NCBI GenBank assembly: GCA_023807065.1
Contig: JAJJLU010000861.1
Location: forward strand, 1-16,069
Source of the DNA: Isotricha intestinalis
Lineage: Eukaryota; Ciliophora; Litostomatea; Vestibuliferida; Isotrichidae
Reading direction: 5' to 3'
DNA length: 16,069 nucleotides
Below the pieces are notes generated by a model that saw nothing but the letters and a program-made list of their open reading frames with translations, was not told where the DNA came from and did not search any database. This document shows, piece by piece, positions 1-9,597 of this stretch. A program made the position numbers and the translations under genes. Each line of letters starts with the position of its first letter. Position 1 is the first letter of the stretch.

Positions 1-35
1 CCCAATCCCCAATCCCCAATCCCCATCCCCAATCA
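1..35. repeat. Telomere, (CCCCAAT)n C-rich strand
   Basis: The window opens with five C-rich units, four of them CCCAAT or CCCCAAT and one a shortened CCCCAT, then changes abruptly to unique A/T sequence. The G-rich strand would be ATTGGGG. A C-strand reading inward from position 1 is what a left chromosome end should look like. The seven-base unit differs from the classic CCCCAA (Tetrahymena), CCCCAAAA (hypotrichs and Euplotes) and CCCTAACA (heterotrichs) repeats, so it could help identify the lineage. Confidence 0.93.
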
Positions 36-463: not shown

Positions 464-1752
464 TTATTTTTCTAATTTATGTTTTTCTTTCTAAGAGTTT
501 GTAATTAATTAACTTTTTACTATCATATTATTTTATTTTATTACTCCCTATATTTATTTATTATTTACTCCCTATTATTTTATTTCAATTTATTTTACAC
601 ACTAATTTATTATATTTATTATAACAATCTAATATTAATTTTAATAAATAGGCTAATTTTAATAAATAAAATACACACTAATATTAATTAAATCATATAC
701 AATCTATATTTTAATAAATATAAATTATATCCTAATATTAAATCAAATTTTACATCCTACAAATATTTATTTATATAATACATCCTAAAAATAAATATAA
801 AAAATATATACTAAATTAAAAAATAATTACAAGCTAAAAATTAAATATTATTAACAATCAAAATAAAATAAAATAATTATTTTACAGGCTATAATTATTT
901 AATATCATTATTTAACTCCCTATAATTATTTAATATTATTATTATTTTACATACTATAATTATTTAATATTAAAATATAACAGGCTATATTTATTTATTA
1001 TTATTATTTTACTTCCTATAATAATTTAATATTATTATTTTACTATCTAGAATTATTTAACATTTTTATTTTACTCCTTATAATTATTTAATATTATCAT
1101 TTTACATTCTATAATTATTTAATATTATTATTTTACATTCTATAATTTTTTAATTTTATTATTTTATTCTCTAATATTATTTAATGTTATTATTTTATTC
1201 TCTATAATTAATTATTTAATATTATTATTTTACAGGCTATAATTATTTAATATTATTATTTTACTTTCTAAAATTATTTAATATTATTATTTTACCCACT
1301 ATAATTATTTAATATTATTATTTTACAGGCTAATTTTATTTTTATTTTACTTCCTAAAATATAATTTTTTATTCTTATTAACTATATTTTTATTTTAATT
1401 TTACATCCTTTATTTTAATTTTTTTCTACTCCCTATTTATTTATATTATTTATTTCACTTTCTTATTTTTATATATCATATACCCACTAACTTTTATTAT
1501 TATTTTACAAACTATTTTTATTATTATTCTTACTTCCTTTATTTTTTATTTTTATATTTTACATACTATATTAATATATTCTTACATGCTATTTTTAATT
1601 CAATTTATTACACACTAATTTAATTTTATATCTTACTTTCTTAATTTATTATAAATATATAAACAGTTATATATTTTAAATTTATTATATAAGCAATTAT
1701 ATATAATTTACCTTATTTCCCATTTATTAATTGGATTATCTATCATTTTCAT
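464..1752 (-). CDS. Small protein encoded by one-codon exons (43 single-codon exons)
   Basis: No homologue recognised. Seen on the minus strand: exon 1 (1752-1717) starts with ATG and reads MKMIDNPINKWE. It is followed by 43 isolated triplets, for example at 1691-1693, 1661-1663, 1637-1639 and 1612-1614, on to 569-571, 545-547 and 521-523. The last exon (490-464) reads KEKHKLEK and ends in TAA. The 44 spacers are 20-32 nt and nearly pure A/T; 35 start with GT (9 with AT) and 39 end with AG. In phase 0 no triplet is a stop, and every third base is A or T except in two TGG. G+C counts by codon position over the first 42 triplets are 20, 17 and 2. Triplets 1612-1296 read CHYEFWKGDLEPW and 808-545 read YDDDICPICGG, a possible metal-binding CPIC. 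The product is 63 residues. Inference: tiny spliceosomal introns or DNA-level excised segments. An alternative donor at 1711 (AAG|GT) would give a start MGNK, also in phase 0. Confidence 0.72.
886..1329 (-). repeat. Homogenised 31-bp array: near-identical 28-nt spacers around variable triplets
   Basis: In this part of the one-codon-exon array, twelve successive triplet-to-triplet distances are exactly 31 bp (the other two are 34 and 35). On the minus strand the 28-nt spacer begins GTAAAATAATAATATTA and ends AATTATAG, with one to a few changes per copy. The triplets between copies are CCT, TGG, AAA, CCT, AGA, AGA, AAT, AAT, GGA, ATA, GAA, CCT, TAT, GGA and CCT. Spacers are therefore conserved and triplets vary, the opposite of what simple tandem duplication followed by drift would give. 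This fits repeated insertion of one element, or homogenisation of the introns only. Confidence 0.85.
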
Positions 1753-1849
1753 TTTTTGTTGATAATTTGATGTTATTTATATTTATTTATTTATTTAGAT
1801 ATCATTAATTAAATAAATATTTTATTATTAATTTTAAAAATATTTATTA

Positions 1850-2740
1850 AAAAAATTGAAGATAATGAATTAAAAGAAAATGATAATAAAAATAATGAAG
1901 AAGAAAAAAAAATAAAGATATTATTGATAATAATAATAAAAATAATGATATAAATGAATATGATAATAAGAATATAAAGAAAATGATAATAAAAATATTG
2001 ATGAAGAAAATAAAATTAAGGATATTAATGATAAAAATATTGAAGATATTAATGTTAAAGAAAATGATAATCAAAATATTGAAGATAATCAAATTAAAGA
2101 AAATGATAATCAAAATATAGGAAAAAAAGAAATTAAAGAAAATGATAACCAAAATATTGAAGATTATCAAATTAAAGAAAATGATAATCAAAACATTGAA
2201 AATAAAGAAATTAAAGAAAATGATAATCAAAATATTGAAAATAAAGAAATTAAAGAAAATGATAATCAAAATATTGAAAATAATGAAATTAAAGAAAATG
2301 AAAATCAAAAATATGATGATATTAATATTAAAGAAAATGATAATGTTTATATTGAAGAAGAAAATAAAAATAAAGATATTAAGAAGAAAATAATAAAGAT
2401 ATTAATGAAAAAAGTGTTGAAAAATTAATCTTAAAAAAAATGATAATGAAAATATTGAAAATAATAAAGAAAATGATAATAAGATTGATGAAAAAAATAA
2501 AGAAAATAATTTAATTGATAAAAATAACGACAATAATGAATTAAAAGAATATAATAGAAAAAATATTGAAGATAATTATAATGATGATTTAAATGATAAA
2601 AAAAGATAGAAGAAAAAAGTAAAGATAATGAAATAAAAGAAAAAGATAATAAAAATATTGAAGATAATGAAATTAAAGAACAAGATAATAAAAATGAAAT
2701 AAATGAAATAAAAGATAAAAATATTGAAGATATTTCGATT
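1850..2740. repeat. 39-bp tandem repeat tract, purine-rich on the plus strand
   Basis: Copies of a 39-bp unit starting AAAGAAAATGATAA lie in perfect register at 2057, 2096, 2135, 2174, 2213, 2252, 2291 and 2330, with degenerate copies on both sides. Read on the plus strand the unit gives the 13-residue pattern KENDNQNIEDNQI, typical of low-complexity protist protein tails. Read on the minus strand it gives an implausible Phe/Ile/Asn run. No ATG or convincing plus-strand gene start exists, and the plus frame breaks at A runs, for example near 1910. It may be a repeat-encoding tail that lost its gene, a minisatellite, or a misjoin, since it abuts the broken end of the minus-strand cNBD gene. 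Confidence 0.85.
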
Positions 2741-3727
2741 TGTAAATACTTCAAAATCACCATCAATAATAAAATAAATACAATCATTTTCTTTATTTTG
2801 TTCAATTAAATCAACACCTTTTTCTAATTTTCTTAAATTAAATAATTTATAATATTTTTTATCTAATGCATAAGGAGTTACTTTTTGAAAAATATTATAA
2901 TTATTAATTACAGAAAAAAATTTTTTTTTTGCTTTTTCAATTGCATTTTTTAGTAAATTATTATAATCATTTCTATAAATAATTGCAAAATCAGTTGGTT
3001 CATTTGTTATTACACTTGCTTGTCTTCTCCCTGAATTTTGTTCTAATGCCAATTCACCAAAAGTTTCTCCTTTATTACTTTTACCAATTATAATATAATT
3101 TGATATTTTTACACTATTTTTTTTTCTTCTTCTTCACTAATTATAATTTTGTAAATTTGTTGATTTACATTATTTCTTTCTATATATTCTTCTATTGGAA
3201 TATTTGTTATTTTTTTTTATTTTGATTTATTTTATAAATTCATATAATTCTTTTGCTTCATTTAATATTGTTTTATTTTGTTTATTTTCATGATTAAAAT
3301 ATATATTTTTTAAATATAAATCAAAATTTTCTCCTATTGAATAAGTTAAACCATTTAATTGAATACATTGTCTTAAAAATTCATTTGAATTATTTTTTCT
3401 TAATTTAAATAAGTGAAGTAAATATTGTTCAAATGTCATTTCATAATTTGTTGGTCTACTTACTAAAAATGATACAGAACCTTTTAATAATAAAAAAAAA
3501 GAATCTCCCTTTTCACCTTCTTCTACTATTATATCATTTTTTTCTCTTTGACTATATTTTATTATTTTTGCACATTCATTTAAATAATAATTATAATCTT
3601 CATTTGTATCACGTAATATATTCATAAAACCTTTTAATTGTCTTATACATTTAACTATTATTGGAATATTTTTTTCTGATTGTGGTTTTTTTAATTCAAT
3701 TATACATTTTTCTAAATCATTTTGCAT
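2738..3727 (-). CDS. Cyclic-nucleotide-binding-domain protein, 3' part lost in the repeat
   Basis: ATG at 3727 (MQNDLEKC). The first cNBD is visible as IIVEEGEKGDSFFLLLKGSV, then a long insertion, then FGELALEQ and RRQASVIT, the phosphate-binding cassette with its conserved Glu and Arg. A second cNBD begins with LEKGVDLIEQNKENDCIYFI and IDGDFEVFTN, then runs straight into the 39-bp repeat, so its phosphate-binding half is missing. An in-frame TAA lies at 3229-3227. The frame shifts at an A9 run near 3210 and again at an A9 run at 3125-3117. Between the shifts the third frame reads NIPIEEYIERNNVNQQIYKI, so the domain is whole if the runs are miscounted. Such multi-cNBD proteins are common in ciliates; the ligand and partner are unknown. 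The neighbouring IFT81 gene is divergent. Confidence 0.78.
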
Positions 3728-4580
3728 TTTTTTTTATATTAATTTTAATTATTTAATATAAAACTCAAAATAACTCAGCTTATATTCCATATGCTTGTAA
3801 ATTATTATTTTAGGAATTACTTGCTATGCATATTACTCCAAAGATGATATTGTCTTCTACAAAAATTGACAAAGCTTAATTTAATTGGGAAAATATATAT
3901 TTAATGATATTTTTTAATTAAATACACTAAATTATTAAATTAATATAAATATATATATTTTTTTTCTTTTAAATTTATTATAAAGTAACTCATTTAAAGA
4001 AAATATAAAAGTATTTTTTTTCTTTATGAATTGATTAATATCAATTATAAATATTTCATTTGTTGATTTATTTAAATGTTTGAATTTTTGGTTCTAATTG
4101 CATATACTAAAAAATAATTGTGAAAAATTTATTTTATATGATGAGGGAATTTGAATTTCATATTAAAATTAAAAAATGAATATCATTCCTCCTTTTACTT
4201 TTGAGAAATTTTATTTTGTTTTATATATTTAAATATTAAATCAAAATAATACATGAGGTAATTAAATTTATTAATTTTTATCTCCTTTTTCTCATTTTTT
4301 ATAAAATAATTTTTTATTTGAATAAAAATATCAAATAAGAAACAAATTTAAATTAATAGAAATGAACATGAAAATAAATTATAAAAAATAATATACCCAT
4401 ATTCATATTTTTTTTGTTTAGAAAATTACATTATTTTTATATATAAATTATATTATTATTCAAAAAAAATATTATAAATTAAAAATAAAAATTTAATTAT
4501 ATATTAATTAGTAACTAATTGATATTTTGGAAAAAAAAAATCAATAAAAATAAATATATAAAATTAAAAAACAGATTAAA
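3728..4580. promoter_or_regulatory. Divergent intergenic region between the cNBD gene and IFT81
   Basis: This 850-bp A/T-rich gap separates two start codons that point away from each other, so it should hold both promoters. A slightly less A/T-rich patch at about 3770-3880 is the only compositional feature. I see no RNA gene, no one-codon-exon pattern and no recognisable promoter motif. Both start codons are preceded by A-rich leader sequence. Confidence 0.4.
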
Positions 4581-6581
4581 ATGAGTAAAAGAGCAATTCA
4601 AAATCCACAAATTAATTCAACAACAATGGTACAAGAAATCGTGGGAGTATTACGTCGTCCACCATTTAACGAGACATTAACATTAATGTCATTTGAAGAA
4701 AAGAGAGAATATGAATTATTAGAATTAATTGTGAAAGTAATGGGAATGATAGATAAAAAATTAAAACTAGACACAAACAACACAGAAGAATGTTTAAGAG
4801 CAACATTTGATTTTTTAAAAATACTAAAATTTAATTATCCAAGTGATAGACAATTACAAGAAGATTTAGCAAGAGGAGATAAAAGATTATTAATTCAAAT
4901 ACTTCATTTTCTCTTAACAAATTTAAAAGCATTAACAAAAACATATTATGTAAATAAATATATAACACCAGTTCAAATAAGTGATGAATATCAAGGTGAT
5001 GAAGAAATAATTGATTTATTAACACAATATAAAGATTTACAAGCTGAATTTTATACTACTTATAATATGTTAGAAGAAAAAAGACAAAATGCACCTCAAA
5101 TTAAAGAATTAAAAGAAGATATTGCAAAAAATCAAAGTGATAAATTACAATTAACTTCCACTATTGCAAGATTTAAAAAAGAATATGCAAATAAACCTGA
5201 TTTTCAAGCTTTATTAGAAATTACTTCTAAATTAAGAAAAGAACAAGAACAAGATTCAAATTTAGAAAAAAAATAATGAGACAACAATATGATATTAAAG
5301 ATGCTGAAGAAAGATTAATGATAGCTCAACAGAGATTAATGGAAAATCAAAAAAATATAAATGAAAATGTAAGTGCATTTCAATTACTTGAAATTGCAAA
5401 AAATCAAAGAAATAATAATAGAGATACTTATGAAAATATAATAAAATATGAATTAATTGATAGAAGAAATAGATTAAAAACTTTAGAACAAATTTTACAA
5501 ATGCCTGAAATTACTATGAATGATTTAGCTACTTTAAAAAATCAAAGAATGAGTTTAATTAATGATATTGATAAATTAGAAAATAAATTAAAAAATTCTC
5601 CAATTCAATCTTCAGAATTACAAATTTATAAACAAAATGCAATGCAAGCTATAACAGCAAAAGAGAATTCTGCTAAATTATTAGAAAAATTATAAAAAGA
5701 AAAAAATTTATTAGAAATAAAATTTAATGAAATGAATAAGAAATTTGAAGCATCAAAAGGATATCGTTTTGTAAGAAAAGATGATTTATTACAACAAGCA
5801 GAAAATTTAAAAAAGAAAAAAGAAACATATCAAAAATACCAAAAAGCAATTGATAGAATAAAAGGAGAAGCATTAATTTTAGATAGAACTATTAATATTT
5901 TAAAAGAAAAGACACCAGATGGTGAAGAAATTTTAAAAAAATTTAAAGAAAAAAATGGAAAAGTATTAAATCAAGTAAAAAGAGAATTGGAAATTTTAGC
6001 AACTAGAAAACAAGAAATTGATGAAAGTAAAGCATTAACTTTAGAAGAATATGCAAAATTAATTAATCAAATTAAAAAAAAAATACAAGATCAAGATTAA
6101 AAAAAATGTTATTGCACCTTTAACAGAAGAAAGAGATAAATTAAAAAGAGAATATGAACAAATTATGCCAACTTATGAAAAGAAAAAAAATACTTTTCAA
6201 GTTGCAACTTCTTCTATTCAAAAAGATTATGATATTGTTAAAGAAGAATATAATAAACAAGAAAAAGTTTTTAGAGAATGTCAAGATAAATATCATCAAT
6301 TGAATTTATCTATGAAAATTAATGCAGAAATGATGAAAAGATGTGAAAATGAAGGTCAATTTATGAGTAAACCTGATAAAAAATATAAAGATAATTTTAA
6401 AACTTATCAAGATTATTATAAAGAAATTATTAGTCAAGAAAATGAATTGATTAAAGATTTAAGGGAAAAACAATTAAAAACTAAAGAAGCTTATGAAGAT
6501 AATGATAGACAGTTGAAATTGTATGCTGATTTAAAAAAATTGCTTACTATGAAGTTTGATAGTTTAAAAGGGAAAAAGTAA
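4581..6581 (+). CDS. IFT81: Intraflagellar transport protein 81 (IFT81)
   Basis: IFT81 is a core IFT-B subunit; with IFT74 it carries tubulin along cilia. The N-terminal region (residues 15-135) matches the family's calponin-homology-like tubulin-binding domain, with LRRPPFNETLTLMSFEE and LIQILHFLLTNLKAL. The rest is coiled coil, and the total of about 665 residues fits the family. Three breaks occur. At 5266-5276 an A8 run precedes TAATGA, and one extra A would restore the frame. At 5693-5695 an in-frame TAA lies between LLEKL and KEKN in a poorly conserved coiled-coil position. Near 6074-6106 the frame moves by one base, in either the A10 or the A8 run; using the A10 run avoids the TAA at 6098. 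The protein ends at the usual family length at TAA 6579-6581. The next in-frame TGA is almost 700 bp away, so TAA appears to terminate here. Confidence 0.92.
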
Positions 6582-7473: not shown

Positions 7474-9597
7474 TTAATTGAATATTAAAAAAGGGAGATC
7501 ATATTTCCCTGATTTAAAATATTTTACACCAGGTTTATCTGAATAATTTGAATAAAAAGAACTTATTTCTTTTAATATTGAATTTTCAATACTTTTATTG
7601 CTTTTATTTCTAGATATTAAATTATTATTTTTAAATTTTTTTATTCTTTGATTATATTGATTTTTTCCAAAGTTTTAGAATTTTTATTATTTTCATTATT
7701 TTGTGATTCAATATTAACTTCATTTTTAAATATTTTTGTTTTAATTGATGTTCTGAATTTATTTGCTCTAATATTAAAAGAAGATTGTCTTGGATTAGAT
7801 GTGAGAAAAAAATTATCCATATTATTATATTCTTTAATACTTTCATTTAAAATAGTTTTATAATTATTAGGATGAGTAATAATAGGAAGATTAGATGAAT
7901 AATCTAAAGACATTAAAGATTTTTTCTTTAAAGGTCTCTTTTGATTCAATTTATGATTAATATTTTTTAAATTGACAGAAATTTGATAAGATTTTAAAGT
8001 TGAACTTGCAGGTCTTAAAATTTCTTTATGTAATTCTTCATTTAATTTTTTTTGTTTTTCTTTAAAAATTATATTCTTCAAAGAATTCTTTAATTTTTAT
8101 ACATTTGTAACATAAAATTAACTTCAAACTTATAAATAACAGTCATTGTACTAGTAACAACTAAACAAAATTTATATTTCATTCCTTTAATACAAGATTC
8201 TAAATCACCAATTCCTCCTGGATTTAATCTACTTATCATTTGCATTTTTTCAATATTAATACTTTCTTTTTCTTTAATATTTCCTATTGGTTTATAAAAA
8301 GCACATTCTCCTTTATAAACAATATAAATTATTTCATCATTATCAAAAGGAGTATAAATAATATCTCCTCTTTCACAAAAAAGAGGAAGAATTTTTATTA
8401 ACATTTTTCCCATTTTATAATCTTTTTTCAAAGCTGGAATTCTTGCTAAAATAAATTTAATTTTTTTCATATCACTTTCAGTAAATTTTTTTGATAGAAT
8501 TTTTTCAAAATATTTTTTATTTAAATAAAATAAATGTGTATCTGTATTACAATAAATTGAAGTTGTTCTTGGAATATTATATAATATTCCCTATTCACCA
8601 AAACACATTCCTTCTGATAATTGTGCTCTTTCAATTTCAAAATCAAGAATAAATTTCGATAATTCTTCACTTGACATATTATTATCGGGAGCTTGATGAT
8701 TTTTAATTGCTTTTACTATTTTAATTTCTTTTTTTATATTTATTTTTATATTTGAATCTTTGAATTCATGTTTAATTTTATTTCTACTTTTTTTTCTTAA
8801 TAATTGTAATGTTTCATTATTAATTGATCAATCAATTATTGAATCTAAATAATCTTCTGTTGATAATCTTCCTTTATTTATTTTTCTATTATCACCATTA
8901 TCCTTATCGTTAATTTCTAATCTTTTACTAATCTGATCTTTTAAAATATGACTTTTTTCATCAATAGAATCATCTTCTTCAATTTCAATTGAATATTCAT
9001 ATTCATCAGAATATTCATTTTCTTCTTCTAAATCAGACATAAAATATTCTTCAGGTATATTTTGTAAACTTTCTTCATTATCAAAATCTCCTTTACTAAT
9101 TAAAGAATGAAATTTTTTTGTATATTCAATTGGAGAAACTAATCTAATTCCAACTTTTCCTGTAATTACACCATACATTGCATCACTTCTATCAAATTGT
9201 CTAAAAAGATATTGTCCTTTTGTCATATATTTATGTTTTATAAAACATGAAATTTTTCTTATATCATCATTTAATAAATCTTGGAAATTCATATATTTAA
9301 TTAATCCATTGAATTTAAGTAAAGTTAAATATATTAAATTTACATTTCTTTCATTTGAGTTATTACAAGAAAAAAGCATTATTTCACTTTGTTTTTTGTT
9401 TACTAATGATTCAAATGTTAATTTATGTTATATATTGGTTTCGATGATTCTCTTATTAAAACTTCATTGTAATGGTAATCTCCTAATAAAAATTTTTTTT
9501 GTAATTCTACTTCTTCATATTCTCTTAATTTAGAGAGAAAAAAAATTGCAAATAATTTTACTCCTTTTTTCTTTTTCCATTCATGATTATTTGACAT
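7474..9597 (-). CDS. Second multi-cNBD protein, interrupted frame
   Basis: ATG chosen at 9597 (MSNNHEWKKKKG). The first cNBD starts at YMTKGQYLFRQFDRSDAMYG, then has a long acidic insertion (EEENEYSDEYEYSIEIEEDD) and resumes at GMCFGE and NIPRTTSIYC, the phosphate-binding cassette. A second domain follows (CERGDIIYTPFDNDEIIYIV, GGIGDLES). The C-terminus is Lys/Asn-rich and ends at TAA 7476-7474. Interruptions: a frame change near 9425 without a long homopolymer; TGA at 8830-8828 inside the insertion, with the frame open on both sides; TAG at 8593-8591 directly after FGE, where Trp, Leu or Gln would be usual; frame changes near 8095 and 8060 at A5 and T5 runs and near 7665 at an A6 run. The two halves of one domain lie either side of the TGA, so these are not separate genes. 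About 710 codons. The ligand is unknown. Confidence 0.8.

Follow-up and report, generated by a model that had tools for sequence, protein, structure and literature searches.

A putative ciliate gene family assembled very probably from dozens of one-codon exons

Exon definition and the footprint of the splicing complex are thought to limit how small neighbouring exons can get, and ciliates with ultra-short introns have exons of ordinary size. Such introns measure ~25 bp in Paramecium and Nyctotherus (PMC5014332) and 15–16 nt in Stentor (PMC9505925). The array genes described below resemble them in intron size class, GT-AG ends and A/T-richness, but differ in that most of their exons would be one codon long. 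Single tiny exons of 1 and 3 nt are reported for Arabidopsis APC11 (PMC4674806) and Drosophila homothorax (PMC7392893); as in our genes, the spliceosome can evidently include exons of these sizes, but there they are isolated and do not form arrays of nearly nothing else. Schistosoma micro-exon genes (MEG) carry 10–20 short exons, mostly of 15 bp, separated by introns of 0.1–5 kbp (PMC10526429). The genes reported here likewise form families whose products vary and whose exons are numerous, tiny and mostly in frame, but their predicted 3-nt exons come in runs of as many as 86, and their introns measure ~27 nt, many being copies of one another; their layout is convergent with that of the schistosome genes, and they are not members of that group. 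The bicycle and megacycle genes of aphids encode fast-evolving products in numerous micro-exons that share a phase (more than 100 in megacycle; PMC9168663). Both traits recur in our genes; however, a megacycle protein of ~2000 residues from more than 100 micro-exons amounts to ~20 codons per exon, with no codon-sized unit. Searches of the open-licence PMC literature, at the level of titles and abstract openings, revealed no gene in which one-codon exons follow one another. The component features, namely ultra-short introns in ciliates, micro-exon genes and single exons of 1 or 3 nt, are already known; we regard the predicted organization, with tens of successive exons of a single codon each, as a new and extreme form of split gene.

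The window, by which we mean the whole stretch of 16,069 nucleotides analyzed, carries close to one end an array of triplets that a sequence-only reading had interpreted as a gene of 43 one-codon exons. Between positions 464 and 1752, AG-NNN-GT occurs 33 times on the minus strand and once on the plus strand, and an order-1 Markov null produced a mean of 2.7 and a maximum of 10 occurrences in 2000 runs, so the minus-strand pattern underlying that reading is real. Comparison with the paralogs gives the following features.

1..34, no strand assigned: telomere repeat (CCCCAAT)n, read from the sequence; the contig start is a chromosome end.
1712..1752, minus strand: exon 1, MKMIDNPINKWEI plus the split codon AG, homologous to the paralog exon M-KIR-IENPIDKWEL(AG).
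1640..1711, minus strand: intron 1, 72 nt, its inner AG absent by comparison with paralog junctions.
1405..1639, minus strand: ten one-codon exons K C H Y E F W K G D, the knuckle motif (family C..C.Y.FWKGE), with GT-AG introns of 20–26 nt.
886..1381, minus strand: sixteen one-codon exons L E P W K P R R N N I E P Y G P, the variable loop, with mostly near-identical introns of 28 nt; AT donors follow TTA 1379-1381, AGA 1199-1201 and AGA 1168-1170, and GGA 1075-1077 is a further loop triplet whose acceptor is AA.
545..858, minus strand: ATT 856-858 (mutated acceptor) and twelve one-codon exons L Y D D D I C P I C G G, the second zinc knuckle (family ICPNCGK); AT donors follow TAT 808-810, GAT 729-731 and CCT 650-652.
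464..490, minus strand: last exon KEKHKLEK plus TAA (counterpart in locus L009, KEAHELGK*).

With the paralogs as guide, 38 triplets are preceded by AG and then followed by GT (32) or AT (6), and three more (1075-1077, 856-858 and 521-523) lack an AG acceptor, bringing the total to 41. The array of single codons and its flanking dinucleotides therefore stand, at lower counts than had been claimed (43 exons, with AG at 39 of 44 spacers and GT in 35 or AT in 9). The codon-like G+C gradient reported earlier (20, 17 and 2 of 42) is reproduced by the re-placed triplets, at 18, 16 and 2 of 38 for positions 1, 2 and 3. Thirty-five of the 37 spacers are 20–32 nt long; the other two, of 59 and 52 nt, each enclose one extra triplet with a mutated acceptor. 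Spacer lengths modulo 3 (0/1/2) are distributed 5/22/10, which bears out the observation that they are often not multiples of three. Relative to the family, the window array retains the loop and, on either side of it, the codon runs K C H Y E F W K G D and D D D I C P I C G G, together with the last exon, which had been recognized correctly as eight codons plus TAA (490-464). It has neither the 1-nt exon nor a first Cys unit that could be used: in the region of intron 1, that exon and the next units, which form the first Cys knuckle, are lost or without splice sites, and the direct pattern for the 1-nt exon found none in the window. Exon 1 had been read as 12 codons, but the paralogs extend it to WEL-A(G/A), with the 1-nt exon completing an Arg or Lys codon; a decoder limited to GT-AG introns starts at the inner ATG (1723). 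With the first zinc knuckle and the 1-nt exon both lost and AT at 6 of its 38 donors, the window copy is unlikely to yield the 63-residue product proposed for this locus and is probably a decaying member of a one-codon-exon gene family.

A DNA search with positions 1-1500 of the window against its own genome (57 Mb) returned 136 matches, self included. To the window we added 48 loci, of which 38 were chosen for resembling it in sequence and 10 from matches to a codon-spacing pattern. Strict chains, in which at least six AG-NNN-GT units lie 18–45 apart, are present in 44 of the 49 loci including the window, on 42 contigs (L033, L036, L039, L040 and L046 have none); the loci were picked for array-like sequence, so this share is not informative on the genome at large. 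Genome-wide, the codon-spacing pattern has 507 matches, compared to 2 for the reversed control, and 375 matches of a similar expression fall within the loci analyzed. The 97 chains lie less than 3 kb from a contig end in 52 cases, more than 5 kb in 23 and more than 10 kb in 6, and the nearby contig ends are mostly non-telomeric.

When the triplets alone are joined, each of the 97 strict chains (1346 triplets) has at least one stop-free frame. The chains of at least 14 triplets are open in 30 of 30 cases, compared to a mean of 15.4 and a maximum of 21 after column shuffling, and the closed frames of these 30 chains contain 150 stops. Nine of the long chains are open in a shifted frame only and not as single triplets; in L028, 48 triplets taken singly hold 17 stops and the shifted frames none. 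Loci of this type, with stops singly and open frames when shifted, indicate that the joined sequence codes and not the single triplets, and open shifted frames are what would be expected of 3-nt exons with introns in another phase. G+C at the three codon positions of the long chains is 0.40, 0.29 and 0.115. Among chains of 6–13 triplets, shuffled versions are mostly open as well (mean 61 of 67), and with control triplets taken within introns 68–83 of the 97 chains stay open, with 21–43 stops in the best frames. Since intron-internal controls are often open too, short chains prove little alone.

The array might instead be a non-coding AT-rich minisatellite in which an AG-NNN-GT core mimics splice sites and codons. 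Tandem repeats are present, with a 31-bp period in the window (14.6 copies, 79% match) and repetitive sequence in several other loci, and short chains are often stop-free by chance. We regard this explanation as very improbable indeed, since long chains are always open, a protein motif and an excess of synonymous differences are common to several loci, and the array frames run on from ordinary coding exons; moreover, in L041, L050, L052 and L053 neighbouring introns are no more alike than introns from different arrays. The sequence-only reading had named an origin by chance in A/T-rich repeats as part of what would refute it; for long chains, the shuffles, the resampling and the conservation between loci lead us to reject such an origin.

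Exon length was counted with a strict decoder, because a relaxed version adds doubtful exons of 4–13 nt. Under a 20-nt exon prior, internal exons in models of at least six exons were exactly 3 nt in 1087 of 1162 and 390 of 421 cases, or 1477 of 1583 (93%) for both sets combined; because strict chains served as its training data, these figures speak for the decoder's stability and not for independence. Under a 100-nt prior, 1312 of 1425 internal exons in 48 loci were 3 nt, compared to 0 internal exons in one resampling of the same loci. The longest run of consecutive 3-nt exons is 86, in L041. Single-base differences at motif codons were synonymous in 81 of 254 cases among 13 loci (12% expected) and in 106 of 213 among 18 loci (15% expected), counts in which pairs are not independent and three rows (L024; L034, L050) come from the second of the two tail types described below. 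Three paralog pairs speak against simple conservation, with differences at 15 of 121 sites in the short exons and at 40 of 797 in the introns; a fourth pair, outside that sum, differs at 10 of 43 and 20 of 243 sites, respectively. The higher divergence of the short exons could reflect diversifying selection or misaligned repeat units.

The arrays carry on the reading frame of ordinary upstream exons. Exon 1 of L010 matches Trypsin_2 above cut-off (E 1.8e-8); matches below cut-off link L032 to trypsin, L011 to B-box and L041 to ART, and the zinc-ribbon Pfam matches of the joined tails are likewise below cut-off. Once joined, the codons would encode paralogous CxxC zinc-ribbon tails behind ordinary exons. 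Type A tails read KWELRC-x2-C-x-Y-x-F-W-K-G-E, a variable loop, C-P-x-C-G and KEAH, and type B tails read EQF-EN-CFKC, a loop and C-x2-C-x-Y-x-F. The type A loop spans 33–115 residues in the eight loci with both motifs (relaxed decode). The L029 product has 67–68 residues with three CxxC pairs and comes from 66–67 exons, of which 65–66 are 3 nt. In L041, a gene at 1478-6043 on the plus strand with a weak ADP-ribosyltransferase match ends in ~38 one-codon exons, and directly behind it lies the run of 86, whose product is charged and coiled-coil-like; the two may be one gene or two.

An exon end of the form TGG-G(A/G)A-(T/A)T- is carried by 16 loci. In 14 of them, by direct pattern, it is followed by an intron of 22–28 nt, a lone base, an intron of 21–29 nt and then TGT or TGC. 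The lone base, A in 12 loci and G in 2, completes the Arg/Lys codon. The base is also present in L015, just 13 nt before TGT, and in L046 the 1-nt exon fits by decoder only; a pattern match in L027 was rejected as chance. Seven related database ORFs of type B, known here from proteins alone and covering exon 1 only, all end in KW or FW, as expected from read-through of a TG|GTAA donor to TGG TAA. Four of them are 54–74% identical to the query, which suggests that this donor is probably old.

Chain introns have a median length of 27 nt (n=1249) and are mostly 20–36 nt long; in a phase-0 view, retaining an intron breaks the frame in 1209 of the 1249 cases. Strict introns (n=896; GT and AG required) have A at +3 in 822 and at +4 in 765, and many intron ends carry TA one base inside. 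A search for a branch-point motif found none beyond A/T-rich words in the introns. Donors in the relaxed decode, from which all donor and intron-identity counts are taken, are GT in 1717, AT in 155 and GC in 8. In double-length gaps, AT follows AG-NNN more often than any other dinucleotide does (55, next 24), it comes after the family Pro codon in 4 of 9 loci, and one AT-AG intron exists in six identical copies across five arrays; for these reasons AT is probably a true donor in these arrays. Among putative introns decoded between exons of at least 60 nt in the loci analyzed, 8 of 12 are 21–33 nt long, and one, in an open actin frame, is doubtful. Of the top 18 actin-family matches, 17 span nearly the whole family stop-free, so that these ordinary genes look intron-free and use the standard code. 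The telomere repeat of the window is also reported for the litostomes Muniziella, along with the standard genetic code (PMC11316547), and Balantidium (PMC10978948). CCCCAAT telomeres and the standard code likely point to a litostome ciliate. The genome contains U6 at two places (108 bits) and U1 at one (72.6 bits), both above cut-off. In L061 (C831:209-368) the U1 RNA starts UCACUUACCUG; the usual start is AUACUUACCUG.

The sequence-only reading had left open whether the tiny segments are removed as introns or as DNA. The paralogs, through their frames, codon conservation, conserved junction and gene context, support one-codon exons set apart by tiny removable segments as a kind of gene, and RNA introns are favoured over DNA excision by the splice-type ends, the telomere-capped contig and the presence of U1 and U6. 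Ciliates excise DNA elements, some of only 26–30 bp, and the spacers could on that precedent be internally eliminated sequences removed as DNA, the window being germline or incompletely processed. This appears very unlikely. A telomere caps the contig 430 bp from the window array, and telomere repeats also terminate six of the other 48 loci, including four with strict chains (L032, L034, L038 and L042); the spacers end in GT/AT...AG, although TA, which along with pointer repeats typifies the ends of eliminated sequences, lies one base inside many of them; and Paramecium excision leaves one TA behind, which here would by our reasoning put GTAG between codons and create stops. Skipping of the spacers by the ribosome deserves hardly any credence. 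Some yeast mitochondria bypass elements of a few tens of nucleotides in translation, but each protein would require 40 to 87 hops here, and the spacers, which have a donor and acceptor consensus, belong to a nuclear genome that also encodes U1 and U6. Spliced RNA introns remain our reading of the spacers.

Introns and codons of the arrays are not coupled. Letter-for-letter recurrence involves 82 intron sequences in 313 of 1610 units (relaxed decode). Where identical introns lie in the same array, the preceding codon is shared in 77 of 425 pairs (chance 8%), and where they lie in different arrays in 75 of 949 (chance 5%). Among neighbouring units whose introns are close (202 pairs), divergence is 3.2% of sites in the introns and 55% in the codons, and the codon is the same in 31 pairs; we therefore reject a simple history of tandem duplication followed by neutral drift. 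The introns of the loop clearly resemble each other more than those of the motif do in L011 (0.97 vs 0.82) and L012 (0.93 vs 0.81); among the other type A loci of the seven compared, the effect is slight in L017 and L020 and absent in L049, L051 and L053. L022, L027, L029, L030 and L035 share intron sequences and have products dissimilar by eye, the arrays of L027, L030 and L035 being truncated by contig ends. Removal of two codon-plus-intron units (72 bp) from L025 yields L044 with 0 mismatches in 947 positions; the two could be copies, alleles or assembly variants. In the L011 loop, DSWVKDLGDEE occurs twice through duplication of a block of about ten codon-plus-intron units. These comparisons suggest that arrays probably gain and lose complete units in frame, and that their introns are probably homogenized, or inserted, independently of codons.

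Introners are mobile intron families, and our arrays are like them in having near-identical intron copies at many sites of one genome, here even across genes with dissimilar products. Copies of one intron might accordingly have been inserted serially, in introner-like fashion, into an uninterrupted frame at 3-nt steps, with no duplication of units. Such insertion would account for letter-identical introns that separate different codons, and for the introns shared by L022, L027, L029 and L030. We consider it possible but unlikely. The L025/L044 difference and the L011 block repeat are changes at the level of whole units, and the greater diversity of motif introns than of loop introns in 4 of 7 loci fits homogenization of the loop. 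To our knowledge, no process has a 3-nt ruler, and we know of no introner with a spacing of exactly one codon. Nor was an uninterrupted homologue found in searches that were weak: the L053 and L029 tails returned no contiguous homologue from their own genome, and the L053 tail none from proteins. L034 matched itself and had four weak partial matches in its own genome and five matches to proteins, covering exon 1 only, and two proteins matched with the L024 tail as query likewise proved to lack it. A weak match of the L055 product at C761 failed on reading the sequence. A viral_contigs search revealed no relative of P0003, and a search of solved structures gave weak matches only (best E 0.063).

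Returning to splicing and change by whole units, we propose with considerable confidence that these loci are a gene family whose zinc-ribbon tails are encoded by dozens of one-codon exons, separated by introns of mostly 20–36 nt that are likely spliced by the ordinary spliceosome. Supporting this are the long one-phase runs of 3-nt exons, a reading frame that is open only on joining, the conserved knuckle codons, the conserved 1-nt exon, the in-frame upstream exons and copies that differ by whole units. Each tiny intron would be recognized as a unit (intron definition). Two splicing complexes cannot fit on a 3-nt exon, so the introns would be removed one after another, probably 5' to 3'. In the resulting protein, two CxxC knuckles would flank a variable loop. 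Recombination between near-identical introns could add or drop whole codons without shifting the frame, and selection would keep or diversify those codons. More tentatively, at somewhat less than even confidence, one intron per codon may itself be a working architecture: near-identical introns would make codons interchangeable cassettes, and intron recombination would add, drop or swap residues in frame, building hypervariable loops between fixed knuckles, which would amount to exon shuffling with single codons as the unit. If the splicing proposal is true, the spliceosome handles dozens of consecutive 3-nt exons and, under intron definition, has almost no lower exon limit, and the arrays offer a natural test of splicing order. 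Identical introns between different codons raise the question of how introns multiply or are homogenized. Ordinary gene finders likely miss such genes, and related genomes may hide further families.

The rest of the window contains other coding sequence. Adjoining the array, a low-complexity open frame rich in Asn, Lys and Glu, with 39-bp repeats, occupies 1970-2428 on the plus strand. Four frames at 2579-3733 and 8093-9427 on the minus strand match cyclic-nucleotide-binding domains, 2 of the 4 above cut-off, and probably belong to two genes whose frames are interrupted. The segment 14153-14518 on the minus strand encodes DUF285 / BspA-like leucine-rich repeats (E 2.1e-18), and its DNA has a period of 78 bp. 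On the plus strand, 4554-6581 is an IFT81 gene (IFT81_CH, E 1.5e-16) with its frame broken at 5266-5273 and 6099-6106; these are two runs of eight A, and the breaks are likely homopolymer assembly errors and not introns.
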